Positions 26,768-61,816 are shown, counted from the stretch's first letter. The stretch is 64,000 nt of DNA from Acidobacteriaceae bacterium (GCA_019233755.1 JAFAMD010000016.1:62001-126000), one strand, 5' to 3'. The notes: generated by a model from the letters alone, not told the origin. Program-made: numbers and translations.

Positions 26768-29218
26768 ATGCACTCGTTTTTTCAGGACCTCAAGTACGCC
26801 GTCCGTACCCTGCTGAAGCGCCCTTTGTTTACCAGTGTCGCTCTCACATCGCTGGCCCTTGGAATCGCCGTAAACGCCACGGTGTTCTCCTGGGTGGACC
26901 GAATTTTGCTGAGGCCCCTGCCCGGCGTTATAAACGCCGGCGAAATTGTAGCCCTCAAGACAGTTGCTCCCAATGGCGACCTGCTCGATTCCTCGTACCT
27001 TGACTTCAAGGACTTCCAGAAACAGGCGACAACTCTCTCCGCCGTCATTGCTTTTAAACAGCGGCCCTTGTACCTGGGCGATGTCGCGACCGGCGAGCGG
27101 GTCTGGTCCGAGATGGTCAGCGGCAATTTCTTCGACGTTTTGGGTGTAAGGCCCATTCGCGGACGAACTTTCTCCGCAGAAGAGCAGAACAGCCGGCCGG
27201 GCTCGCCCGCGACCGCTGTCCTTAGCGAAACGCTGTGGCGGGGGTATTTCCGCTCCGATCCCGATATTCTCGGCCGAAAGATCGAACTCAACCGGCACCC
27301 GTTCACCGTTATCGGAATCGTGCCGTCCGCCTTTCAGGGCACGGTGAACGGTCTGCGATTCGATCTCTGGGTCCCGCTGACGATGGTCTCGGAGCTCACC
27401 GGTTCCTTTTATTGGCCGGATGACCGCAACGCCCGGCCGCTTGACCTGATGGCCCGGCTGAAACCGAATACAAGTCTGAAGCAGGCCCAGGCAGAGGTAC
27501 AGACCATCGCAAGCCGGCTGGCACTCGAGTATCCGGATACAAACCGCTACCTGAGCGCGGCCGTGATGCCAATTGCCGACTCACCAGCCGGCGCACAGCG
27601 AATCTTGGGCAGGCTGCTGAAGGTGCTGCTCGTGATCGCGGCTGCAGTGCTCCTGATTGTATGCGCCAACCTCGGCAACCTGCTGCTCGTGCGTGCCACG
27701 ATGCGGACGAAAGAGTTCGGCATCCGTGCCAGCCTGGGTGCGAGCCCGCGGCGCATAGCGCAACAGTTGTTTACTGAGACGCTGGTGCTTGCCGTTGGGG
27801 GGACCGCGCTCGGCCTGCTGGCATCTGCCTGGATGGTACACGCGGTCGAATTCTTTGTCCCGCCTACTGATCTGCCGCTGGCGAATCTTGCCCACGGCTT
27901 TCACGGTCTGGACCTGCTGTTCACCTGCGCGCTCGGCTTTTTGGCGGCGATCTTCTGCGGCATTGCACCGGCGCTGCAGCTTTTCCGGCATGGCATTCAG
28001 GAGGCCTTGCGGGAGGGTGGCCGGTTTTCCTCGCCGGCGGCACGCTCGCGAATCCTTCGAAGCGGGCTGGTGGTTTTCGAGCTTTCGCTGGCACTCTTCG
28101 CTCTCATCGGAAGCGGCCTCTTCATTCGCAGCTTCCAGAACGCCAGGAATGCTTACCCCGGGTTCGAGCCGGAGGGCGTGTTGCTGGCCGGAATTGATCT
28201 CTCGCAGGCCCATTTGTCGAAGCCACAGCGCGTCACCTTCTTTCAGCGTCTTCGCGACCAGCTCACGTCGCTGCCCGGGGCGCGCAGCGCCAGCTTGTCT
28301 GAACACGTGCCGTTAGGCTTCGACAACGGCGCCTGGGAGGAGATCAGAATAGAAGGGTATATTCCGAAAGCCGGCGAAAACATGAAGCTTTGGCGCGACA
28401 TTGTTTCACCCGGCTATTTCGCCACACTGAAGATACCGCTGGCGGCCGGCAGAGATTTCAATGAGCGTGATTCTTCCGCCTCGCAGCCCGTCGCCATCGT
28501 GAATGAGACGTTCGTGAAGCGATTTCTGCCCGAACCTCCCGCACTCGGACGCAAATTTCTGCTGTGGGACAGAGAGTTTACGATCATTGGCGTGGCCAGG
28601 GACATCAAGTACCAACGGCTCAACGAAGGGCCCATGCCCTACTTCTACCTCCCTTTGGCCCAAGCCTACTCATCCGATATGGGGATTGCTGTTGAAGTGC
28701 GCACGGCGTCCAGACCGGATACGTTCGCTGAGGTCCTTCGCTCCCGCATACGATCGGCGGATCCGAACGTCTTGATCAGCGTGACAATACCCTTCGCCAG
28801 CTTTATGAGCGCGTCCTATTTTGCCCAAAGGGTCGGGGCCCATCTGCTGACCGTCTTGGGCGTGATCTCGTTGCTGCTTGCGATTCTCGGGTTATACGGC
28901 GTGATGGCGTACTCCACTACCCAGCGCACCGGTGAAATCGGCATTCGCATGGCTCTTGGCGCGCAGCCGGCGCAGGTTCTGCAACTGGTTATGCGGGAAG
29001 GGATGGGGCTGTGCTTGATCGGGATCGCCCTCGGGCTCATCCCCTCCCTCGTTCTGGCCCGGCTTGCCGCGAGCGCGCTGTACGGCGTAGGAAACCACGA
29101 TGGTTGGATCTATTTTGCGGGTGCCTTGATTTTGAGCGCGGCCGCCCTGCTCGCGACCTGGCTGCCGGCTCGCCGCGCTGCGCATATTGAGCCGACAAAG
29201 GCGCTGCACTGGGAGTGA
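26768..29218 (+). CDS. ADOP: acidobacterial duplicated MacB/FtsX-type permease
   Basis: An 816-residue membrane protein with two consecutive MacB_PCD/FtsX units. The N-terminal helix contains LTSLALGIAVNATVFSWVDRILLRPLPG and is followed by a large periplasmic domain (ILGRKIELNRHPFTVIGIVP). A first FtsX block holds LLIVCANLGNLLLVRA-TMRTKEFGIRASLGASPRR. The second unit ends with LGLYGVMAYSTTQRTGEIGIRMALGAQP and LLATWLPARRAAHIEPTKALHWE. About eight transmembrane helices are expected. It has no ATPase domain of its own. The HlyD adaptor and MacB-like ATPase genes follow on the same strand, suggesting a mechanotransmission-type ABC system; the substrate is unknown. Confidence 0.93.
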   Translation: MHSFFQDLKYAVRTLLKRPLFTSVALTSLALGIAVNATVFSWVDRILLRPLPGVINAGEIVALKTVAPNGDLLDSSYLDFKDFQKQATTLSAVIAFKQRPLYLGDVATGERVWSEMVSGNFFDVLGVRPIRGRTFSAEEQNSRPGSPATAVLSETLWRGYFRSDPDILGRKIELNRHPFTVIGIVPSAFQGTVNGLRFDLWVPLTMVSELTGSFYWPDDRNARPLDLMARLKPNTSLKQAQAEVQTIASRLALEYPDTNRYLSAAVMPIADSPAGAQRILGRLLKVLLVIAAAVLLIVCANLGNLLLVRATMRTKEFGIRASLGASPRRIAQQLFTETLVLAVGGTALGLLASAWMVHAVEFFVPPTDLPLANLAHGFHGLDLLFTCALGFLAAIFCGIAPALQLFRHGIQEALREGGRFSSPAARSRILRSGLVVFELSLALFALIGSGLFIRSFQNARNAYPGFEPEGVLLAGIDLSQAHLSKPQRVTFFQRLRDQLTSLPGARSASLSEHVPLGFDNGAWEEIRIEGYIPKAGENMKLWRDIVSPGYFATLKIPLAAGRDFNERDSSASQPVAIVNETFVKRFLPEPPALGRKFLLWDREFTIIGVARDIKYQRLNEGPMPYFYLPLAQAYSSDMGIAVEVRTASRPDTFAEVLRSRIRSADPNVLISVTIPFASFMSASYFAQRVGAHLLTVLGVISLLLAILGLYGVMAYSTTQRTGEIGIRMALGAQPAQVLQLVMREGMGLCLIGIALGLIPSLVLARLAASALYGVGNHDGWIYFAGALILSAAALLATWLPARRAAHIEPTKALHWE

Positions 29219-47261: not shown

Positions 47262-48011
47262 ATGAATCGAGTTGCGCTGGTGACGGGCGCTGGGAGCGGA
47301 ATTGGGCGGGCCGTGAGCCTGGCTTTGCACGCGTCCGGATGGGATGTAGTGATGGCCGGCAGAACAGGGTCGAGGTTGAATGAGACGGCGGCGATGGCGA
47401 AGGCGACCGGTTCGAGAACGGTTGTGGTGCCCACCGACGTCAGCGAACCCGAAGCGGTGGCGGCGCTGTTTGGCAAGATCCGCGAGGAGTTTGGGCGGCT
47501 GGATCTGCTGTTCAATAATGCCGGTGTCAACGCACCGGCTGTTCCGATTGAGGAACTGAGCTACGAACACTGGCGTGAAGTCATAGCGGTGAATCTGACG
47601 GGAGCCTTCCTGTGTGCGCAGGAGGCGATCCGACTGATGAAGACACAGCAGCCCAGAGGCGGGCGAATCATCAACAACGGCTCTATTTCGGCGCACGCGC
47701 CACGACCAAACTCCGCGCCTTATACAGCCACCAAGCACGCGATTACCGGTCTCACGAAGAGCCTCTCGCTTGATGGAAGGCCCTTTGATATCGCCTGCGG
47801 GCAGATCGATATCGGGAATGCCTCGACCGAGATGACAGAGGCGATGACAGCCGGAGTACTACAGGCGAACGGCAGCAGAGCGGTAGAGCCACGCATGGAC
47901 GTGCAGCATGTGGCCCAGGCAGTGCTGTATATGGCCGGGCTTCCGCTAGATGCGAATGTGCAATTCCTTACTGTTATGGCGACCAAGATGCCGTATGTGG
48001 GGCGTGGATGA
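47262..48011 (+). CDS. SDR-family oxidoreductase
   Basis: A 249-residue classical short-chain dehydrogenase with TGAGSGIG at 8-15, NNAG at 85-88, Ser141, and YTATK giving Tyr154 and Lys158. The C-terminal half departs from fatty-acid reductases ([19 protein letters not shown], then [17 protein letters not shown]), resembling SDRs of unknown substrate found widely in soil bacteria. Cofactor preference is probably NADP(H), given GRTGSR after the second strand. It is followed by an ADOP permease gene 137 bp later. Confidence 0.92.
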
Positions 48012-48148
48012 GAAGCGCCGGGATCCGATTCAGGACGCGGCTGTCCCATAAACGCGACACCGCTGGACGGGGAGGCGTCAAAGGCCGGCAGAAATACGTA
48101 GAATTCGATTTGGCAAACCAATTGCGCAATGCTCTCCGGGAGAATCTC

Positions 48149-50563
48149 ATGAGCGATCTCATGCGGGATGTTCGCTATACAGCGCGGGTATTGTTGAGGA
48201 CTCCGGCGGCGACGGCCATTGCCGTTCTTGCGCTCGCGCTGGGCATCGGCGTAAACGCATCCTCCTTTATCAGCACGAGCGCGTTGATTCTTCACCCGCT
48301 GCCTTATCCGCGGCTGGATCGCATTGTGACCGTTTGGGGAACGCTGCCGAAGCTGCAGACGGAGCGAAGTCCGCTGGCGCCGGCGGATTTCATCGACCTC
48401 AAGAATGAGAGCCACTCGTTCGAGCAACTCGCAGCTTACCGTGAATGGAATGCGGCGCTGACCGGGACAGGCGATCCCGAATGGGTGCAAGCGACGGTGG
48501 TGACGCCGGGCTTCTTCCGCGTGCTTGGCACGGGCGCCCGGCTGGGACGCACCTTCGCGGGGGATGAGAGCGACGCATCCCCGGCGAGAGTGGCAGTGGT
48601 GAGCCAGGGATTCTGGAAGACGCATCTGGCGGGATCGGCGGATGCGGTGGGCAAAGCGATTTCGCTCGACGGGAAGAGTTACACCGTGATCGGCGTAATG
48701 CCTGCCGAATTCAACTATCCGCTCCAAAACGAGATCTGGGCGCCGCTTACGCTGGACGCAGCCGAGCAGCACCAGCGCGCGGTGCATAACCTGATGGTAC
48801 TGGGCCTTCTGAAGCCAGGCGTAAGCGCGACCGAAGCCAGCAGGGAAGCCGCGGCGATTGCTGCACGGCTAGCGCAGCGGTATCCGTCGACGAACGAAGC
48901 TCGCAGTATAGTGGCAGCTCAGCTTCGCGAATCGAGCGACCAGGTGACGAACCATTTCCTCCTCACGCTGATGGGCGCGACCTTTTTCGTGCTGCTGCTC
49001 GCGTGTGCAAATGTCGCAAACCTGCAACTGGCACGCGCTGCGAACCGGCAGAAAGAAATAGCGGTGCGGGCAGCGCTCGGGGCAAGCCGGGCCCGGATCG
49101 CGCGGCAGTTAGTCATAGAAAGCCTGCTGATCGCGCTCGCCGCGGGCGGAATCGGGCTTCTTCTCGCGAGCTGGACAAGCGACGCGCAGCGGCCGTATAT
49201 CTCGCCCGGAGCATTGAGGGTTGTGCCGGGACTCGCGAATATGCACGTGGATTCGACCGTGGTGATGCTGACTTTTGCGGTGTCCATCGCGGCAGCGTTG
49301 CTGTGCAGCCTGCCGGCCATTTTCCAGCTTGTGATGCGGCGGATGCGGGCGGATCTGCGCGATGCTCTGCAGGAACGCGGCGGCAGCCAGGGAGCGCTTC
49401 CGGGCCAGAATCGTTTGCGGTCGGTGCTGGTTGTGTTCGAACTCGCCATGGCGTTAGTGATGCTGGTGGGAGCGGGCCTGATGGTGAACACATTCCAGCG
49501 CCTGCTCGACCGTTATCAGGGATTTGACCCGAAGAATCTGCTGACGATGCAGGTGTCACTGCCGGCGACTGCGTACCCAGGCGGAGCGCAGATAACGTCG
49601 TTTTACGACCGGGTGCTGCAGGCGCTCAAGACTGTTCCGGGCGTGAGAGCAGGAGCGGTTTCCTCGAGCGCCGGACCTGCGGAGCGGCTCGTGATTGAAG
49701 GACGGCCAGAGCCCCGGGCCGGTGAGCCGAGGCCTTACGTCAAGGCCGTGAGCGGCGAGTTTCTGGAAGCCATGCGCATCCCGCTGCTAAGCGGGCGCTT
49801 TCTTTCGGACAGGGATCGAGCGACTACACCGGGCGTCGTGGTGGTGAGTGAAAGCATTGCCCGCCATTACTGGCCGAATGCCAGCCCGGTAGGCAGGCGC
49901 ATTCAGCTCAATGGGCAATCGGGATGGCTGACAGTTGTCGGTGTGTGCCGGGATGTCATCGATGACTGGTTCAGCGGGCAACCGTCTCCGGCGGCGTATG
50001 TTCCCTACACGCAACATCCCAGCGCTTCCGGAGTGATCCTCCTCCGCACAGCGGGCGACCCGATGCAGGCGGCGCCGGCAGCGCGCGCAGAGATCCGCAG
50101 CGTCAACAAAGATTTGCCGGTTTACGACGTCGAGACGATGGAAAAGGCGATGGCCGACGAGCGCGGAGGAGTTCACGCCGCAGCTTCCACAATGACGGGA
50201 TACGCGATTATCGCTTTGCTTCTGGCGACTACCGGCATTTATGGAGTGCTCTCCTATTTCGTGGCAGCGCGGACGCATGATATCGGCGTGCACATGGCGC
50301 TAGGCGCAAACCGAGTGGACATTCTCAAAATGACGATGCGGAGAGCCGCCGTATTGACTGCGGCGGGCCTTCTCATCGGGATACCGCTCGCGGTATTGCT
50401 CACACGCGTGATGGCGAGCGCGCTTTACGGAGTAGTGCATCTGGAGCCGATGACGTTCGGCCTGTTCGCCGGCGTTCTTGCGCTTTCGGCGCTGCTGGCC
50501 AGCTATCTCCCGTCGCGGCGCGCGACACGCATCGATCCAATGAAGGCTTTGCGGAGCGAATAG
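48149..50563 (+). CDS. ADOP: acidobacterial duplicated MacB/FtsX-type permease
   Basis: An 804-residue double permease. The start is ATG 48149 (MSDLMRDVRYTARVLLRTPA), preceded by GGGAG. The frame is open 47 codons further upstream without family similarity and would overlap the SDR stop. Typical elements are LALALGIGVNASSFI, ILHPLPYPRLDRIVTVWG, VVTPGFFRVLGTGARLGRTF, LLLACANVANLQLARAANRQKEIAVRAALGASRARI, and near the C-terminus GIYGVLSYFVAARTHDIGVHMALGANR and SYLPSRRATRIDPMKALRSE. No ATPase, adaptor or PadR gene is adjacent, so any energy source must come from elsewhere. The function is unknown. Confidence 0.93.
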   Translation: MSDLMRDVRYTARVLLRTPAATAIAVLALALGIGVNASSFISTSALILHPLPYPRLDRIVTVWGTLPKLQTERSPLAPADFIDLKNESHSFEQLAAYREWNAALTGTGDPEWVQATVVTPGFFRVLGTGARLGRTFAGDESDASPARVAVVSQGFWKTHLAGSADAVGKAISLDGKSYTVIGVMPAEFNYPLQNEIWAPLTLDAAEQHQRAVHNLMVLGLLKPGVSATEASREAAAIAARLAQRYPSTNEARSIVAAQLRESSDQVTNHFLLTLMGATFFVLLLACANVANLQLARAANRQKEIAVRAALGASRARIARQLVIESLLIALAAGGIGLLLASWTSDAQRPYISPGALRVVPGLANMHVDSTVVMLTFAVSIAAALLCSLPAIFQLVMRRMRADLRDALQERGGSQGALPGQNRLRSVLVVFELAMALVMLVGAGLMVNTFQRLLDRYQGFDPKNLLTMQVSLPATAYPGGAQITSFYDRVLQALKTVPGVRAGAVSSSAGPAERLVIEGRPEPRAGEPRPYVKAVSGEFLEAMRIPLLSGRFLSDRDRATTPGVVVVSESIARHYWPNASPVGRRIQLNGQSGWLTVVGVCRDVIDDWFSGQPSPAAYVPYTQHPSASGVILLRTAGDPMQAAPAARAEIRSVNKDLPVYDVETMEKAMADERGGVHAAASTMTGYAIIALLLATTGIYGVLSYFVAARTHDIGVHMALGANRVDILKMTMRRAAVLTAAGLLIGIPLAVLLTRVMASALYGVVHLEPMTFGLFAGVLALSALLASYLPSRRATRIDPMKALRSE

Positions 50564-51805: not shown

Positions 51806-52339
51806 ATGGAAGAACGAGCCGACGAGTTACAGCAGGCGTTTTTGACGTTTTCGCGCGAGAAGTTGAAAGACGAGTACTGGCCGAGGATCTGCGCGTGCAT
51901 TGAGTCGCTCACGGAAGAGCAGATCTGGTGGCGTCCGAACGAGACGAGCAACAGCATCGGAAATCTGCTGCTGCACTTGAACGGGAACATGCGGCAGTGG
52001 ATTGTGGCGCCTCTGGGCGGCGTGGCAAACACGCGGAATCGGGATGCCGAGTTCGCGGAACGGCGGCACCTTGACACGGCCACACTACGGAGCGCGCTGG
52101 ACGAAACACTCGAGGAGTTCGATCGCATTCTGGCTCGATTGACGGCAGCGGACCTGCTCAAGACCTATACCATCCAGCGATACGAAGGCATTACTGCTCT
52201 TGCAGCGATCTATCACGTGGTGGAGCATTTTGGCATGCACACAGGCCAGATCCTCTACATCACGAAGGCCATGACGGGAAACGACCTGGGATTCTACCGG
52301 CAGTTAAGCGGTTGGGGACCGGTGGCGTCCAGCCACTAA
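51806..52339 (+). CDS. DinB-like (DUF1572) four-helix-bundle protein
   Basis: A 177-residue protein of the DinB/YfiT superfamily: IESLTEEQIWWRPNETSNSIGNLLLHLNGNMRQWI in the first half and YHVVEHFGMHTGQILYITKAM in the second. The three histidines that would bind a metal are His in LLLHLNG, YHVVEH and FGMHTGQ. Relatives include bacillithiol-dependent S-transferases (BstA) and other metal-dependent thiol transferases. Since a BshA homologue is present in the window, bacillithiol use is conceivable (inference). It converges with the gene at 52336 by 4 overlapping bases. Confidence 0.85.
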   Translation: MEERADELQQAFLTFSREKLKDEYWPRICACIESLTEEQIWWRPNETSNSIGNLLLHLNGNMRQWIVAPLGGVANTRNRDAEFAERRHLDTATLRSALDETLEEFDRILARLTAADLLKTYTIQRYEGITALAAIYHVVEHFGMHTGQILYITKAMTGNDLGFYRQLSGWGPVASSH

Positions 52340-53007
52340 ATTCTCTGCGCTATTCTCTGCGCGCGGCGGTACCTGATGAAAAGCATTGCCGCGAAGCCGG
52401 CGGCAAGGAGGACGAAGTAGCCGCCAGGCTCAGCGGCCGAACTCGCGGCAGAGGCGACAACACTGATGTCGTCCAAACCGAGGTATGCCGGATTTTGCAG
52501 GAAGCCGAATTCCAGCACGGTTGACGAAGACGAAGCAGTTAGCCCGTTGAACGTATATTTGACGAAATTGTCGAGTTCGGGAACCGGGTTCTGGACGGAG
52601 CCGGGAATGACGGAACCGTTCCAGGAAGCCTGGAACACACTGGGGGCGTTATCTCCATCGCTGGACGGGTTATCCAGATAGTAAGTAAGTGAGTAAGTCC
52701 GTCCCGGTGTGGTCGCGAGGGCCTGGGACAGATAGCCGTAAGTGGTGGGATCGCCCGGTGTGCCGATGGGGCCTAGCTGCGCTCCAAAGTTGCCGCTGTT
52801 TGCAAAATTCGGGGCAACTGACGCGGCGGGAGCGACGAAGTTATATCCCAAGCTTCCGGACTCTGTCCAGGACGTGAAATCACCGGTTTCGAATCCGCAG
52901 TTTGCGACTAAGTTACCGGAAATGGCACCGCAAACGCTTGGACTCGCGGTTGCAAGGGCGGGGAGAAACACTGCTGAAAGCACAGCAAAATGTAATTTCT
53001 TCAACAC
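52336..53007 (-). CDS. PEP-CTERM-like sorted surface protein
   Basis: A 223-residue exported protein starting at GTG 53005-53007. A signal peptide (FAVLSAVFLPALATA) is followed by a beta-sandwich-type domain with NLVANCGFETGDFTSWTESG, a pattern shared with PEP-CTERM carbohydrate-binding-like proteins. The C-terminus is AEPGGYFVLLAAGFAAMLFI then RYRRAQR, a degenerate PEP motif plus transmembrane helix and basic tail for exosortase/archaeosortase sorting. No exosortase gene is in the window. An 18-bp palindrome covers the start codon. It is convergent with the DinB gene. Confidence 0.8.
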   Translation of the reverse strand: MLKKLHFAVLSAVFLPALATASPSVCGAISGNLVANCGFETGDFTSWTESGSLGYNFVAPAASVAPNFANSGNFGAQLGPIGTPGDPTTYGYLSQALATTPGRTYSLTYYLDNPSSDGDNAPSVFQASWNGSVIPGSVQNPVPELDNFVKYTFNGLTASSSSTVLEFGFLQNPAYLGLDDISVVASAASSAAEPGGYFVLLAAGFAAMLFIRYRRAQRIAQRI

Positions 53008-53177: not shown

Positions 53178-54134
53178 TCAAGTTTCGGCATAGTAGCGGT
53201 CCGTCGCCTGAACGATCAATCCCTTCTCCTTGGTCTTTAATTGAAGCTTACGAAACCCCGAGGATGTGACCGGCTGGTCAGAGACGAAACCGAGGCTGTA
53301 CTGGCTGCGCAGCTCCTCCTGGATGGCGTCGTAGATCTGGCTGATGCTGCGAGTTTTCGACACCTCGAAGTAGCCGCCGCCAGTTTCGCCGGCGAGATGC
53401 TTCAGGACACCTTTGCCGCTGGGCCCGAGTGAGAGATGGCCGCCGTAGTAGGACTCGTCGGAGAACAGGATGCAGTAGACGAGGGTATCGGCGCGCTGTG
53501 CGGCTTCGATGGCATCCGTGAGGGTAACGGTACTGCCGAAGTCGACACCATCTGTGAGGACGATGAAGGCTTTGCGGCCCTGTACGCTGCGCATAACCTT
53601 GATAGAAGCGGTGCGAACGGCATCGTAGAGCAGCGTGCCGCTGCCGTTGCGGGCCTGCTCGGCAGTCGGCGAATCAATCAGGGAAAGCGTATCCTGCAGA
53701 TCTTTGTGCGAGGCGGTAAGGCCCTGGCGGATGACGACCGCCTGATCGAATTGAACGATGACACCCTTGTCTTTGTCTTCACGCAGGACCTGGTCGAGAA
53801 ACCGGTTGCTGGCGCCGCGCTCGTCTTCGAGGACCTTGGTCTGGCTGAGACTGCTGTCAACGAGCAGGCCGATGGTAAGCGGGAGATCAGATTCCTGGGA
53901 GAAGTAGCGGATGATTTGCGGCTTGCCGTTCTCGAGCAGGGTGAAATCGGTCTTGCCCAGATTGCGAATGATCTGGCCGCCTTTGTCACGCACGGTAGCG
54001 AAGACGTTGACAACTTTGACCTCGGCAGAAAATGTAGGTTGATCCTGCCCGTGCAGCACACGCGCGCTCAGTACGGCGCAGGCAGTTGAGGCGAGCCACT
54101 GACGGCGTGTGAGGGGATGGGGAAGGCTGCACAT
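53178..54134 (-). CDS. VWFA-related Acidobacteria domain protein, exported
   Basis: A 318-residue protein from ATG 54132-54134 (a GTG 17 codons upstream is possible). The N-terminus carries a signal with TRRQWLASTACAVLSARVLHG, which looks twin-arginine-like or Sec. The first domain includes VFATVRDKGGQIIRNLGKTDFTLLENGKPQ, then a von Willebrand A fold: MIDAS start LLVDSSLSQ, and FIVLTDGVDFGS. The C-terminal segment is RSQYSLGFV. This corresponds to the acidobacterial VWFA-related family found in very many copies per genome. Binding partners are unknown. Confidence 0.9.
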   Translation of the reverse strand: MCSLPHPLTRRQWLASTACAVLSARVLHGQDQPTFSAEVKVVNVFATVRDKGGQIIRNLGKTDFTLLENGKPQIIRYFSQESDLPLTIGLLVDSSLSQTKVLEDERGASNRFLDQVLREDKDKGVIVQFDQAVVIRQGLTASHKDLQDTLSLIDSPTAEQARNGSGTLLYDAVRTASIKVMRSVQGRKAFIVLTDGVDFGSTVTLTDAIEAAQRADTLVYCILFSDESYYGGHLSLGPSGKGVLKHLAGETGGGYFEVSKTRSISQIYDAIQEELRSQYSLGFVSDQPVTSSGFRKLQLKTKEKGLIVQATDRYYAET

Positions 54135-54213
54135 CTTTAGATAGACGGACGAACGGCCCGGGTCCGGTACTGCAACAATCGACACGGGCCAGGTGTTTCT
54201 ACTGGGGGTCCAG

Positions 54214-55544: not shown

Positions 55545-58500
55545 CTATACGACTCTCATCAAGATAAAAGTCAGGTCATCGAACTGCGGAGCATCGGCCA
55601 TCCAAACCTTGAGCTCCTGGAGAATCTGCGACGCCATTTCGTTGATGGGGAGATGAGCGGTGCGGCGGAGAACGTCTTTCAGGCGGTCTTCGCCGAACTC
55701 TTCCTCGTCCGGGTTGTGCGCTTCCGTCACTCCGTCGCTGAACGCAATCATGACATCACCTGATTTGAGCTCGACGGACGCCTCTTCGTAGCTGGATTGG
55801 GCGAACATCCCGATGATGGTGCCGCCGGCGGCAAGCTCTTCAATGGGCGCGGCGGAGGCAACGAAAGGGACAGGCGAGTGAGTTTCTGCCGCGCGAAGGA
55901 GTAGCGGCGGGTTGTGTCCGGCGTTGACGTAGCGGAGGCGCCGTTGCTCTTCGTCGATTTGACCATAGAAAAACGTTGCGTAGCTGCTGGTGCCGGTTGA
56001 CCGGTGCAGGAGTCGGTTCATTTTGCTCGCGAGCTCGGCGAGGGAACCACCGTTGGTGTCGGCGAGGCTGCGGAGCGAAGCCTGGACGACCGACATGATG
56101 AGAGCCGCGGCAATGCCCTTCCCCGCTACGTCGGCAAGAGCGATGCCGATCTGCCGATTGCCGAGATCCAGGAAGTCATAGTAGTCGCCGCCGACCCCGC
56201 GAGCCGGGAGGCACATGCCGGCGAGCTGAATGCTAGCGGTTTCGGGAAATTTCTCGGGGAACAGGCGCTTCTGCACTTCGGCGGCGAGGAGGAGTTCGCG
56301 GCGAAGGCGCTCCTGTTCAACGATGCGATCAGTGAGGCGGCTGTTTTCGAGCATAAGCGCCAGTTGTGCAGCGGCGGTACGGACCGCGCGGCACTCCTCG
56401 GCGCTGTAGGCGGAGCGGGCGTTTGGCTCTCCCAACAGAAGAATGCCGATCATCTCGGTTTTCGAGAGTACAGGAACGGCAAGGCGCGCGTTGAGGGCGG
56501 CGAGGGTATCGAGTTCGGAAACGTGCTCCGGCGCAAACTCGGCGGCCCAGTTTCGGATACCGGTGAGTTCGCAGGCGGAGACCGGCAGGGCAGACGAGTA
56601 ATTGCGAAGCCGGTTCAGCAGAAGCGCGTTGGCGGGCAGGATTGCTTCGCGAGGACTTGTTTGCGCGGCGGCCGCGCTGAGCCGGAATGGCTGATCCGGC
56701 AATTTACGAGTGAAAAGGTAAGCTGCGCAAGCTTGCACTCGTTCGCGCAGGACCTGGAGGGCGGCTTCGATCGCCTGGGGAAAGGACTCGGCGCGGCGGC
56801 TCGTCTCAGAGATCGCCGCGAGAAGTTCGCCTGCCGGGTTGGGCGCTTCGGGCGCATGACGAATCACTTCGGAGATGCGTTCAGTCAGGAGCCGGTAATT
56901 AAAACGCACCCGGTTCAAATGCAGATCGCTGCGGACAGCGACCATCGGAGAGAGCGTGCCTGCGCGCCAGGCGGGAAACCAGCAGGCGAGCAAAGTGCAG
57001 GCGGCGACTAGAACAATTGCGCCGAAGAACGGAAAAGGGCCGGAGAAGTGGACGTGCAGGTCACTGGTGGCGAGCAGGCGCGCGCACCCCAGCACGATAA
57101 CGAGGCCAAGGCCGATGCCGATGGCAGCCATCCTGATACCGTCGCCGATGACGAGGCGCCACAGATCGCGGGGCGCGGCACCCATTGCCATGCGGGTCCC
57201 CATTTCGGTGATGCGCTGCCTAACTGAGTAGGCGATGACGCCGTAGAGGCCGAGAAGAGCGAGCAGCAGCGCCGATGCAGCGAAGAAGGCAATCATGAGC
57301 GATTGCAAGCGCTGGCGCGAGAGCGAGTTCCGGATGAGTTCGGGCATCGTCGAGACATCGAAGATAGGCTGATCAGGATCGATGCTTTGCACGGCGCGGC
57401 GGAGCTCGTCTGTCAGAGCGGCTTTCGGCAGCGGCGAGCGCACGGCCCAGGTCATGTCCGAAGGCGTTACGGCACGGTATGAGAGATAGAACTCGGGGCG
57501 CACCTCGCGATAGAGGCCGGCGTTGCGGGTATCGCCAACGATGCCGACGATCTGAAACCGTTTGTCCCAGGAAAGAATCCGGACATAGGCGCCGAGCGGG
57601 TTGCTATTCGGCCAATACAGCTTTGCGAGAGTCTGGTTAATGACCATCGGGACGACATCGCCGATTTTGTCTGCCTCAGTGAGGAAACGGCCGGCAAGCA
57701 GCGGAATGCGCATGCTCTGAAAGTAATCGGGACTGATAAAACGTTGCTCGATGGATTCGGTCTCGAGCCAGTTCTTCGGAACGGGCCGGCCCTCCACGCG
57801 CATAACGGTGTTATTACCCCATCCCGTGAGCGGCATGAGATCGGTAAACCCTGCGTTTTCTACACCTGGGAGGCGACGGATGGTTTCGATGAGGCGGGTT
57901 TCGTAGGCAGCCTTTTCGTCCTGTGTTTTGTACTTCAGCTCCGGCGCGTAGACATGCATAACGAGGAGGTTTGCGGTATCGAAACCGGGATGAATGCGGT
58001 AGAGGCCGCGCAGGTGCTGCGCAATGAGTCCGCCGACGACCAGCAGGGCAAACGCGAGAGCCACTTCGGCAACGACAAAGAAGCGCAACAGGCTGCGGCT
58101 GCGCGCGCCGGCGGACGCACGGGTGCCTTCGCTTAGGGCCTCGTTTGGAGCAACGCGGTGTGCCTGCCAGAGAGGGAAGAAGCTGAAGAAGAAAGCGCAT
58201 CCTACGGCGAGCGTGAGAGCGAAGCCGAGCACCTGCCAGTTGAAGGCAATTTGATCGGAGCGCGGAATTTCGTCAGCCGCTAGAGAAACAGCGATGCGCA
58301 CCAGGATGTAGCTGAGCAGCGAGCCCAAGACTGTGCCGGCAAGCGAAACGATAAGGCCTTCAGCGAAGTACTGGACTCCCAACTGCCAGCCGGTAGCACC
58401 GAGAGCGACGCGGACTGCTGTGTCCCGGGCCCGCGCGACAGAACGGGCCAACAGGACGCTCGCTACGTTCGCGCAGGTGATCACGAACAAAGCAATCGCT

Positions 58501-59342
58501 GCAATAAATAAGAGGATCAGGCTCGGGCGGATGCCTTCGACCGCGAATTCGAGGACCGGAATGAGATACTCGAAGTCCGGCTCTGCGTCAGCGGGGTGCT
58601 GGCGCCGCAGGCCGGCGAGGATGCGATCGAAATCCTGACTCGCCTGCCCAGGCGTGCCGCCGACCGGGAGCTTAACCACGCAACGCAGATAGTGATACGA
58701 CCGATACTGCTTTTGATTGGAATCGGGGTTCAGCGGAATCCATACGTCGTTCTTGTCCTCATATATGGGGTAGCGAAACCAGCCGGGCATCACACCAACG
58801 ATGGTGTAGCGGGTGCCGTCGATAGTGACCGGTTTGCCGAGGATAGCGGGATCGGAGCCGAAGCGGCGCCATAATGCGCTCGAAATAACCGCCGCATAGG
58901 GCCCATTCGGTTCCTTCCTGTCTTCCTCAAGCTTGTCTTGCTCAAACCAGCGGCCCATAACGGGTGAGACGCCGAATGAATTAACCAATGCGGCGGACAC
59001 CTGCGTGCCGACGACGTGCACGGGTTGTCGATTGAACGTGACGTTGATGCTGCCGGTGGAGCTACAGCCATAGGCCTCGACACTTCGAAGCTGAGCAGCA
59101 TAATCGAGGTAATCGGAGTAAGAGGTTACCGTCCACCAGTTCGGATGCGCACGCCACGCGCCGAACACGCTGTAATAACGCTCCGGATTGGCGTACGGCA
59201 GCGGGTTCAACAACACCGCGTGAATGAGCGAATAGATGGCGGTGGTGGAACCTATGCCAATTGCAAGGGCGGCGACGGCGAGAAGAGCAACGGCCCGCGC
59301 GCTCTTCCATGCCCGCCAGCCATGCAGAACGGAAGCAAGCAT
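55545..59342 (-). CDS. ADOP permease fused to GAF-like region and SpoIIE/PP2C phosphatase
   Basis: A 1265-residue protein. Residues 1-810 are a full ADOP: first FtsX helix and LGIGSTTAIYSLIHAVLLNPLPY-type start (28-50), ILGKPVTIDGTRYTIVGVMPG (167-187), helices at 275-345 and 370-395, a second unit with LGAYVRILSWDKRFQIVGIVGD, and terminal helices at 685-705, 740-755 and 772-788 ending in SPMVAVRSD (798-806). Residues about 830-1000 look GAF-like (LAALNARLAVPVLSKTEMIGILLLGEP). Residues 1010-1265 are a SpoIIE-type PP2C domain: LLAAEVQKRLFPE, GGDYYDF (Asp1053), LADVAGKG (Asp1071), FSDGVTEA (Asp1203) and DDLT (Asp1255-1256). All metal-binding aspartates are kept, so the phosphatase is probably active. 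It likely combines periplasmic sensing with cytoplasmic dephosphorylation. Confidence 0.93.
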   Translation of the reverse strand: MLASVLHGWRAWKSARAVALLAVAALAIGIGSTTAIYSLIHAVLLNPLPYANPERYYSVFGAWRAHPNWWTVTSYSDYLDYAAQLRSVEAYGCSSTGSINVTFNRQPVHVVGTQVSAALVNSFGVSPVMGRWFEQDKLEEDRKEPNGPYAAVISSALWRRFGSDPAILGKPVTIDGTRYTIVGVMPGWFRYPIYEDKNDVWIPLNPDSNQKQYRSYHYLRCVVKLPVGGTPGQASQDFDRILAGLRRQHPADAEPDFEYLIPVLEFAVEGIRPSLILLFIAAIALFVITCANVASVLLARSVARARDTAVRVALGATGWQLGVQYFAEGLIVSLAGTVLGSLLSYILVRIAVSLAADEIPRSDQIAFNWQVLGFALTLAVGCAFFFSFFPLWQAHRVAPNEALSEGTRASAGARSRSLLRFFVVAEVALAFALLVVGGLIAQHLRGLYRIHPGFDTANLLVMHVYAPELKYKTQDEKAAYETRLIETIRRLPGVENAGFTDLMPLTGWGNNTVMRVEGRPVPKNWLETESIEQRFISPDYFQSMRIPLLAGRFLTEADKIGDVVPMVINQTLAKLYWPNSNPLGAYVRILSWDKRFQIVGIVGDTRNAGLYREVRPEFYLSYRAVTPSDMTWAVRSPLPKAALTDELRRAVQSIDPDQPIFDVSTMPELIRNSLSRQRLQSLMIAFFAASALLLALLGLYGVIAYSVRQRITEMGTRMAMGAAPRDLWRLVIGDGIRMAAIGIGLGLVIVLGCARLLATSDLHVHFSGPFPFFGAIVLVAACTLLACWFPAWRAGTLSPMVAVRSDLHLNRVRFNYRLLTERISEVIRHAPEAPNPAGELLAAISETSRRAESFPQAIEAALQVLRERVQACAAYLFTRKLPDQPFRLSAAAAQTSPREAILPANALLLNRLRNYSSALPVSACELTGIRNWAAEFAPEHVSELDTLAALNARLAVPVLSKTEMIGILLLGEPNARSAYSAEECRAVRTAAAQLALMLENSRLTDRIVEQERLRRELLLAAEVQKRLFPEKFPETASIQLAGMCLPARGVGGDYYDFLDLGNRQIGIALADVAGKGIAAALIMSVVQASLRSLADTNGGSLAELASKMNRLLHRSTGTSSYATFFYGQIDEEQRRLRYVNAGHNPPLLLRAAETHSPVPFVASAAPIEELAAGGTIIGMFAQSSYEEASVELKSGDVMIAFSDGVTEAHNPDEEEFGEDRLKDVLRRTAHLPINEMASQILQELKVWMADAPQFDDLTFILMRVV

Positions 59343-59380: not shown

Positions 59381-61816
59381 CTATTCATAATGAAGGGCCT
59401 GCATCGGCGGAATGCGCGCCGCACGGATCGCCGGAACGATGCAGGCCAACAAAGCACAGGCGGCGAACAACAAGGTGGAAGTGGCCAGGGTTAGCGGATC
59501 GCTCGGGCTGGTTTTGGCCAGAACGGCCCGGACCACGAAATGGCTCAGCCAGGCGCCGCCAAGGCCAAGGACGAGACCGGGCAAGAGAAGGCAGAGTCCG
59601 CGGACCGTGACCCGACGAAGGATGTCATTTGCAGTAGCCCCGAGGGTCATTCGGATGCCGAACTCCTGCGTGCGGCTTCCGGCAACGTAGCTGATGACGC
59701 CGTAAATGCCGACGACGGACAGAACAACCGCCAGGACAGCGAAGCCGATCATCCAGATCACCATGAGCCTATTGGCCGCCATTTGCTCCGCGATCAGCGT
59801 ATCGAGCGAACTAATACGCGAGAACGCAAGATCCCGATCGAGACCCTCGACGGCAGCCAACATGGCTTGAGCAGCCGAAGCGTCAGCGCTGCTGCGGGAA
59901 CGAAGCAGCAAGTGCATCTCGCGGCTGGGAAATTGGCGGTAGGAAGCGAGCAGCATCGGTCGAGGGCGCTCACCTGGTTCGAATTGCGAGGCATCCTCGA
60001 CGAGGCCAACAATGCGAATGGACTGGCCGCTATCGCCCATTATTTGAATCGTATGGCCGAGGGGATCGCGACCGGACAAGTAGCGGTCTGCAAAGGTGCG
60101 ATTGATGATGCCCACAGGGCTTTGACCTGCATCATCCCGTGAATCAATGCCCCGGCCGCGCAGCAAGCGCAGGCGAAGCACCTGAAGATAGTCTGGCGAG
60201 ACGGGGTTGAAGAGGGTGGACGGGATCGCGTCAGGCCGCGCCGCAATCCCGTCGAGTTCGAACCGGACAGCTTTGGTCCATCCACCAAAGGGCGGGAATT
60301 CCGAGATGGCGGCAGATTCGGCTTGCTGAATGCTTTGTGCTCGCGACAGCAGTTCGTTGAAAAACTGCCGGATTCTGTCGTCGTTCGGATATTGCTTTTG
60401 AGGCAGAGAGAGTCGGCCCAAAAAGACGTGGTGAGGGTCAAAGCCGAGGCTCACCGAGTAAATAGCGAGTAAGTCGCGGCACAGAAGACCGGAGATGACG
60501 AAGACCGTCAATGTCATGGCTATCTCGCCTATGACCAGCAGATCGCGCCAAAGGCCGAGGCGCAGCGTACCAGAGGAGCCTCGCGATATCTCTTTCAGCA
60601 CTTCATGAACGTCGAGGGTGCTGAGCCGCAGAGCCGGACTCACACTGAAGAGGATGCCCGCCAAAAGTGCGATTCCCAGGGCGTAACCGAGAACAGGATA
60701 GTTGAGCCCGACGCGGCCGTAATTCGGTAAGTACTGCGCCAGACTTTCGGGAAGGCGGCTTCCGATTCCGCTGGTCATCCCAGCGGCTACCAGCAAGGAG
60801 ACCGCTCCACCGGCAAGGAAGAGGAGAATGCCCTCTGTTACTAACTGCCGGGCAAGGCGCCAGCGGCCGACGCCCAGGGCGAGCCGCACGGCGATTTCGC
60901 GGCGGCGGTTGATGGATCGCGCAAGGACAAGATTCGCGACGTTCGTGCAGGCGATCAGCAGAAGGCAGGCCACCACCCACAACAACACCCGGATGCCGTT
61001 CTCCCCGCTCTGACGCGCAACGGCTTCGGCATACGGAAGAACGCGAAAGCCGAGGTTGTTGTGAGTCGCCGGAAAACGGCGCTCGAGGCCGCGAGCAAGG
61101 CGGTCGAGGGTCGCCCTGGCCTGAGCGATCGTGACGCCAGGACTGACGCGGGCGAAGATGGCAATGCTGCGGTCTGCGCGGTTAAAACGTTCGCGCGGTC
61201 CGAGGACCAGCGGCACCCAGACGTTCATCGCACCCATGAGGGGAACGTGAAACCGCGGGGGCATGATGCCGATGACCCGGTAATCCGTGCCTTCGAGCCG
61301 AATATTTTTGCCGATGATGTTAGGGTCGGCCGCATAGCGGCGCTGCCACAGGCCATTGCTGATCACAACTACCTGCGCCTGGCTCTTGCTTGTTTCCTCG
61401 GGAAGAAAGCTGCGGCCTTCGGCCGGCTTGACGCCAAAGAGCGGGAAGAAATCGGACGAAACACGGGCACCCTGCACGCGTTCGGGCTCGAGACCCGCTC
61501 CGCTGAGATTAAAGCCCTCCAGGTCGAACCCCGCAACAGACTGGAACGTGTTATGGGTTGCTTCGCGGAATTCGGTGTAATCGGCCGGAGAGAGATCTTC
61601 AACCGAGCGTTGCAGCCGCTGCTCAAAGCGAATCAGAGCGATTTGTTCAGAGTGCGCGAACGGTGAGGGAGTCAGGAGGAAAGCGTAGGCGAAGCTGAAG
61701 ACCCCGACATTGCAACCGATGCCGAGCGCGAGAGTAATGACGGCCGTGAGAGTGAAGCCGGGATTCCTGCGAAAGAGGTGGAGCGCGTAGCGAATATCCT
61801 GGCCCAGACTCTGCAT
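59381..61816 (-). CDS. ADOP: acidobacterial duplicated MacB/FtsX-type permease
   Basis: An 811-residue double permease starting at ATG 61814-61816. The N-terminus reads LGQDIRYALHLFRRNPGFTLTAVITLALGIGCNVGVFSFAYAFLL. The first permease core has LLLIACTNVANLVLARSINRRREIAVRLALGVGRWRLARQLV. The second unit has VVGIYGVISYVAGSRTQEFGIRMTLGATANDILRRV and the closing AIRAARIPPMQALHYE. It ends 38 bp before the start of the ADOP-phosphatase fusion, so the two permeases probably form one operon and may act as a heteromeric pair. No ATPase gene is adjacent. Confidence 0.93.
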   Translation of the reverse strand: MQSLGQDIRYALHLFRRNPGFTLTAVITLALGIGCNVGVFSFAYAFLLTPSPFAHSEQIALIRFEQRLQRSVEDLSPADYTEFREATHNTFQSVAGFDLEGFNLSGAGLEPERVQGARVSSDFFPLFGVKPAEGRSFLPEETSKSQAQVVVISNGLWQRRYAADPNIIGKNIRLEGTDYRVIGIMPPRFHVPLMGAMNVWVPLVLGPRERFNRADRSIAIFARVSPGVTIAQARATLDRLARGLERRFPATHNNLGFRVLPYAEAVARQSGENGIRVLLWVVACLLLIACTNVANLVLARSINRRREIAVRLALGVGRWRLARQLVTEGILLFLAGGAVSLLVAAGMTSGIGSRLPESLAQYLPNYGRVGLNYPVLGYALGIALLAGILFSVSPALRLSTLDVHEVLKEISRGSSGTLRLGLWRDLLVIGEIAMTLTVFVISGLLCRDLLAIYSVSLGFDPHHVFLGRLSLPQKQYPNDDRIRQFFNELLSRAQSIQQAESAAISEFPPFGGWTKAVRFELDGIAARPDAIPSTLFNPVSPDYLQVLRLRLLRGRGIDSRDDAGQSPVGIINRTFADRYLSGRDPLGHTIQIMGDSGQSIRIVGLVEDASQFEPGERPRPMLLASYRQFPSREMHLLLRSRSSADASAAQAMLAAVEGLDRDLAFSRISSLDTLIAEQMAANRLMVIWMIGFAVLAVVLSVVGIYGVISYVAGSRTQEFGIRMTLGATANDILRRVTVRGLCLLLPGLVLGLGGAWLSHFVVRAVLAKTSPSDPLTLATSTLLFAACALLACIVPAIRAARIPPMQALHYE

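Follow-up and report, generated by a model that had tools for sequence, protein, structure and literature searches.

A 64,000-nucleotide stretch of genomic DNA from a soil Acidobacteriaceae bacterium (GCA_019233755.1, JAFAMD010000016.1:62001-126000), termed here the window, carries on its minus strand an open reading frame at positions 55545..59342 that encodes a protein of 1265 amino acids. In this protein, an ADOP permease is joined to a GAF domain, a coiled-coil helix and a SpoIIE-type PP2C phosphatase. The frame runs from an ATG at 59342 to 55545 and comprises 1265 codons with no internal stops. An earlier note on this DNA had placed the gene at exactly these coordinates, without giving a strand, and had described an ADOP permease, a GAF-like region and a PP2C in a single frame; domain searches (Pfam, NCBIfam) bear out this description. 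The fusion probably represents a real membrane-to-cytoplasm signalling protein and not an accident of assembly, because many relatives carry the same fusion. Loci and contigs are designated below by L and C numbers.

Permease half

The permease part comprises residues 1-806 (56925..59342, minus strand). Residues 5-806 match the ADOP profile TIGR03434 of NCBIfam with 750.8 bits (cut-off 622.3), and positions 5-803 of the 803 in the profile are covered. This part is internally duplicated: Pfam finds MacB_PCD twice and FtsX twice. Hydropathy places eight membrane segments at approximately residues 18-36, 275-293, 326-348, 365-389, 422-440, 681-699, 739-757 and 770-788, and large periplasmic domains are predicted at about residues 45-274 and 441-680. 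In the standard topology of FtsX and MacB proteins the N-terminus is cytoplasmic; with eight membrane segments the C-terminus should therefore be cytoplasmic as well, and the GAF-PP2C part is expected to lie in the cytoplasm. The arrangement suggested previously, with the phosphatase inside the cell and the permease domains facing the periplasm, fits this prediction. A cytoplasmic FtsX motif that resembles the loop on which MacB docks its nucleotide-binding domain (NBD) is formed by R710, E713, G715, R717 and G721, all of which are invariant in 22 aligned fusions.

A full-length homologue of 1199 amino acids (L092) was modelled with AlphaFold (mean predicted local distance difference test score, pLDDT, 80.9; predicted template modelling score 0.58); the placement of permease relative to phosphatase is not reliable in this model and only the halves are interpreted. 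The permease half resembles E. coli YbbP (9ge6; Z 24.2 over 661 residues, root mean square deviation 9.5), and BceB (8s5g, Z 20.7) is also among the best fold matches.

Most fused ADOPs (e.g. L081, L095, L077 and L086), and also the split copy L115 described below, carry a GCCxxT-like motif with vicinal cysteines in their second periplasmic domain; it is found in none of the other unfused ADOPs compared. The subclade of the window protein has GWGNNT at this site. The two variants may mark different ligands, and the vicinal Cys-Cys pair is a possible metal or redox site.

GAF domain, linker helix and phosphatase

The tail that follows the eighth membrane segment and the GAF domain occupy residues 807-980 (56403..56924, minus strand), with the GAF domain at about 836-980 and a model pLDDT of about 90. 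When the whole protein is scanned, the GAF matches fall just under the Pfam cut-offs; residues 835-1045 scanned alone score 29.1 with GAF_3 (cut-off 27) and 26.1 with GAF (cut-off 22.4). GAF_3 (PF13492) is matched by all 13 family members scanned, and a profile of the region retrieves GAF sensor domains from histidine kinases with known structures, of which 8w26 scores best (E 1e-4). The assignment rests on sequence profiles, because PP2C matches filled the structure-search lists.

The joint between GAF domain and phosphatase is a single long helix of 47 residues, 981-1027 (56262..56402, minus strand), which corresponds to positions 179-225 of an AlphaFold fragment starting at residue 803. The helix ends in a conserved EVQKRL(L/F)P motif, with E1022, V1023, Q1024, R1026 and L1027 invariant in the 22 aligned proteins. 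The AlphaFold2 model of the GAF-PP2C part, built with 30 rows, has a mean pLDDT of 90.8, and the order of GAF domain, long helix and PP2C is that of RsbU/RsbZ-type GAF-linked PPM phosphatases.

The SpoIIE-type PP2C comprises residues 1028-1265 (55548..56261, minus strand). The SpoIIE similarity that had been proposed for the C-terminal part is clear, with a match to PF07228 over residues 1063-1264 at 165.2 bits (Pfam). The metal-binding residues Asp1053, Asp1071, Asp1203 and Asp1255, previously noted as in place, are present and are invariant across the aligned fused proteins. The best fold match, with Z 27.7, is SiaA-PP2C (6k4e); another is the RsbU domain of Rv1364c (3ke6, Z 26.6). The phosphatase is apparently intact.

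Recurrence and conservation of the fusion

With the GAF-linker region as query, 257 genomes of the order were searched and the DNA was then read. The fusion was found in 27 of these genomes, which represent 12 genera, and three of them have two copies; the copies counted include some cut by contig ends and one that is decayed. This recurrence rules out a sequencing or assembly join near residue 810, which the earlier note had named as a way in which its reading could fail. The alignment of 22 fused proteins used throughout consists of the window protein and 21 full-length homologues, which are 36-53% identical to it.

Compared with the same-genus homologue L039 (70% protein identity), the ratio of nonsynonymous to synonymous substitution rates (dN/dS) is about 0.10 over 1081 codons of the joined frame. 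By part, it is 0.10 for the ADOP, 0.10 for the linker helix and 0.17 for the GAF domain, the least conserved; these values are rough, as dS is near saturation. The fusion protein is under purifying selection.

Origin, split copies and decay

The fused permeases form one clade with full local support in a tree of 105 ADOPs; this clade includes the split copy L115 and leaves only L097 outside. A tree of 89 PP2Cs likewise groups the fused phosphatases in one clade (Shimodaira-Hasegawa-like approximate likelihood ratio test 96), here with both L097 and L115 included. The other two unfused rows in this PP2C clade, L108 and L106 (whose assembly also yielded L074), are fragments truncated where their contigs end. 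In an approximately unbiased test on a reduced set, a single clade of fused ADOPs that includes L097 is not rejected (p 0.71). Given this value, an independent re-fusion in L097, with its ADOP outside and its PP2C inside the fused clades, is not claimed. The simplest reading of the trees is one old fusion followed by losses and at least one secondary split.

The split is seen at L060:9120-12794, the same region as L115, where an in-frame TGA stands after the permease and, six codons later, an in-frame ATG that has GGGAG shortly before it precedes the GAF-PP2C. This may represent a naturally split gene or a nonsense mutation. The fusion is also present in a record labelled Vicinamibacteria (L082) and, frameshifted, in one labelled gp6 (L101). 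L082 lies inside the fused clade beside copies from Bryobacterales, a placement that possibly results from transfer or from a binning error.

Permease and phosphatase as separate genes

The PP2C clade that neighbours the fused one is mostly from Pyrinomonadaceae and consists of stand-alone GAF-PP2C proteins of 540-600 amino acids. Of the eight genes in this clade, seven (L103, L105, L107, L109, L110, L122 and L132; not L118) have an ADOP gene as their immediate neighbour in the same orientation, and 6 to about 270 nucleotides separate the two. Because the list of these eight had been ranked partly on ADOP similarity, a check sample was chosen on the phosphatase alone: the L109 phosphatase served as query against 396 genomes across the phylum and 20 loci were fetched. 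Both clear stand-alone members in this sample (L194 and L195) have an ADOP next to them in the same orientation, L195 with an 8-nucleotide overlap, whereas a class of phosphatases of 830-930 amino acids, PDZ-containing in the one member scanned, has an ADOP in none of 17 loci within the stretch read. An ADOP is also absent from the stretch read around L193, a protein of 558 amino acids that has part of the N-terminus of the larger class. The difference between two of two and none of 17 gives a Fisher probability of about 0.006, in a small sample whose classes were separated only once the loci had been read. Adjacency in other orders combined with fusion in one is the classic sign of functional linkage.

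SpoIIE genes also stand among ADOP genes in three Acidiferrales-type contigs (L114, with a receiver domain, L116 and L117). These were not counted as the same system, as their SpoIIE sequences come from a distant phosphatase clade.

Relation to known systems

The membrane protein SiaA of Pseudomonas aeruginosa has a periplasmic sensing part, which is not a permease, and a PP2C on the cytoplasmic side whose substrate is a STAS protein. It shares the phosphatase fold with the window protein, whereas against the SiaA equivalog NF038263 (cut-off 700) the window protein scores 41 bits. The permease half shares its fold with E. coli YbbAP and MacB, in the case of YbbP by the L092 model and in that of MacB by sequence. 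YbbAP and MacB work with an ATPase subunit or domain and have no signalling domain. Ordinary acidobacterial ADOPs (TIGR03434) have the same duplicated permease; in contrast, the fused ADOPs form their own clade and carry a phosphatase. To our knowledge no function has been assigned to the ADOP family, and none was found in the literature searched.

RsbU, RsbP and RsbZ, PPM phosphatases of the general stress response, resemble the C-terminal half in that a sensor domain is followed by a coiled-coil linker and a PP2C/SpoIIE phosphatase of the same fold, and in RsbZ it is a GAF domain that precedes the linker (PMC12143880). Unlike in the fusion, no permease is named among the sensors discussed there, and the words transporter, permease and membrane do not occur in that paper (PMC12143880).

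A signalling use of the MacB/FtsX fold had previously been put forward as new. This was too strong, since in the BceAB-BceS modules a permease of the same superfamily controls a histidine kinase (PMC10314905, PMC7828314). These modules, which function in antimicrobial-peptide sensing in Bacillus, share with the fusion an FtsX/MacB (type VII ABC) permease, a large extracytoplasmic domain and control of a cytoplasmic enzyme. However, BceS is a histidine kinase with a chain of its own and the cycle is powered by BceA ATPases, whereas the fusion carries a Ser/Thr phosphatase as part of the permease chain; neither a histidine kinase nor an ATPase is among the adjacent genes scanned in the window (Pfam). 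Both ingredients are known, and what appears new is a transmembrane SpoIIE-type phosphatase with an apparently orphan permease as its proposed sensor. No paper describing an ADOP-SpoIIE fusion was found in the literature searched, which did not cover most subscription papers. Both the covalent fusion and the wider ADOP-phosphatase gene partnership appear to be undescribed.

Proposed mechanism

We favour, with moderate confidence, a one-chain transmembrane sensor in which the permease, by way of the GAF domain and the coiled-coil linker, controls a phosphatase that acts on STAS anti-anti-sigma factors. The fusion protein is likely a membrane stress sensor. The architecture, topology, active site and conservation all fit the transmembrane sensor proposed in the earlier note; the signal, control by the permease and its direction, and the STAS substrate are parts of it that we infer.

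In outline, the ADOP half would lie in the inner membrane with its two large MacB-type domains in the periplasm, where binding of a ligand or mechanical movement would shift the membrane helices. The movement would pass through the cytoplasmic tail to the GAF domain, on to the 47-residue helix and then to the PP2C, which by homology with RsbU would be switched by ordering and dimerisation of the helical linkers. The active phosphatase would dephosphorylate a serine of STAS anti-anti-sigma proteins whose genes lie elsewhere in the genome, and these would then bind RsbW-type kinases and so release a sigma factor or another target. In RsbU, the phosphatase is activated through dimerisation of the coiled-coil linker, and a similar mode of action is predicted for further PPM phosphatases, including GAF-linked ones (PMC12143880). 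In Bce modules the permease controls the signalling enzyme, and BceS in turn throttles the transporter (PMC10314905). By analogy, the mechanism proposed here may be viewed as Bce-type permease control joined to an RsbU-type linker switch.

The organism's own genome has STAS proteins with a D-S-[ST]-G motif (contigs C8, C45, C9 and C4) as well as RsbW-type kinases, two of which adjoin STAS genes (C8, C45), so that a candidate partner-switching target would exist in trans. The genome also encodes 20 SpoIIE domains, which would converge on few STAS proteins.

Several observations weigh against the proposed sensor. Being confined to about 10% of the order's genomes, the fusion is sporadic. The halves of L115/L060 are separate genes, which indicates that covalent joining is not essential, and the copy in strain KBS 96 (L112:10001-12893) is decayed, with residues 484-791 of the query gone and the PP2C frameshifted. 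No neighbour gene is conserved around the 31 fusion loci and the window, hence no STAS or kinase gene either, and the neighbourhood offers no guide to function. In addition, the ADOP chain is itself duplicated and pseudo-dimeric, so that for the phosphatase to form a dimer two complete permeases would have to lie next to each other.

Control might also run in the opposite direction, with the phosphatase regulating the permease, a reading we regard as rather unlikely. The ADOP would move a substrate, or do mechanical work with an ATPase supplied in trans, and the tethered GAF-PP2C would sense a cytoplasmic small molecule and dephosphorylate the permease itself, the ATPase or some partner. Such a ligand could be bound by the GAF domain, the invariant NBD-docking-like FtsX motif points to an ATPase-binding surface that may have been kept, and Bce modules are controlled in both directions (PMC10314905). 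However, no ATPase was found among the neighbour genes scanned in the window (Pfam), although one may still act in trans, and, as stated, no neighbour is conserved. Where substrates of SpoIIE-type PP2Cs are known, they are mostly STAS proteins, which also speaks against this reading.

It is unlikely that the permease is a membrane anchor that passes no signal, with the PP2C regulated by a GAF ligand alone. The occurrence of the two halves as separate genes in L115 and in Pyrinomonadaceae would be consistent with an anchor, as would the direct regulation of such phosphatases by GAF domains (PMC12143880). Against this, the whole 800-residue permease and both periplasmic domains are kept at a dN/dS of about 0.10, which is beyond the needs of an anchor, and the separate-gene relatives still adjoin ADOPs. 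That the fusion arose by accident or in assembly and has no coupled function, as the sporadic distribution and the decayed and split copies might suggest, is very improbable: separately assembled genomes of 12 genera share the junction spacing and catalytic residues, dN/dS is about 0.1 across both joined halves, and the artefact version is already refuted by recurrence.

With the one-chain sensor as the favoured reading, at least some ADOPs appear to be wired to partner-switching signalling. More tentatively, some members of this family, of which there are dozens per genome, may be one- or two-gene receptors, in several classes of Acidobacteriota, in which an ATPase-less permease of type VII ABC-like form would convert periplasmic events directly into Ser/Thr dephosphorylation of partner-switching proteins. 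The fused phosphatase and the neighbouring phosphatase genes provide a concrete lead to the function of the strongly expanded ADOP family, which becomes directly testable via a simple enzyme readout. A permease would then join the PAS, GAF, HAMP and receiver domains as sensors that can be linked to SpoIIE phosphatases.

Gene neighbourhood and other ADOPs of the genome

An ordinary ADOP permease of 811 amino acids (59381..61816, minus strand; TIGR03434, 796.7 bits) is located upstream of the fusion. It is separated from the fusion frame by 38 nucleotides and is on the same strand, a position not conserved across the fusion loci. This gene is a probable operon partner of the fusion gene. Further ADOP permeases are present in the window at 48008-50563 and 26768-29218. 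The genome as a whole has 36 ADOPs over the TIGR03434 cut-off; those other than the fusion have open frames of at most 979 amino acids and are without a phosphatase.

On contig C9 (L159:3408-7699), a SpoIIE gene with a glyoxalase domain overlaps the 5' end of an ordinary ADOP gene that has the same orientation. It was not used as a case of ADOP-phosphatase adjacency, as its PP2C is of another class, and a single such case is not far from chance expectation given the numbers of ADOPs and SpoIIE domains in this genome.

Two other minus-strand genes of the window lie near the fusion. One, at 52336-53007, encodes a 223-amino-acid secreted protein whose hydrophobic, Arg-rich C-terminus resembles, by eye only, a PEP-CTERM-like sorting signal. 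The other, at 53178-54185, encodes a protein of 335 amino acids that has a signal of Tat-like type (TRRQW) and weakly matches von Willebrand factor A.

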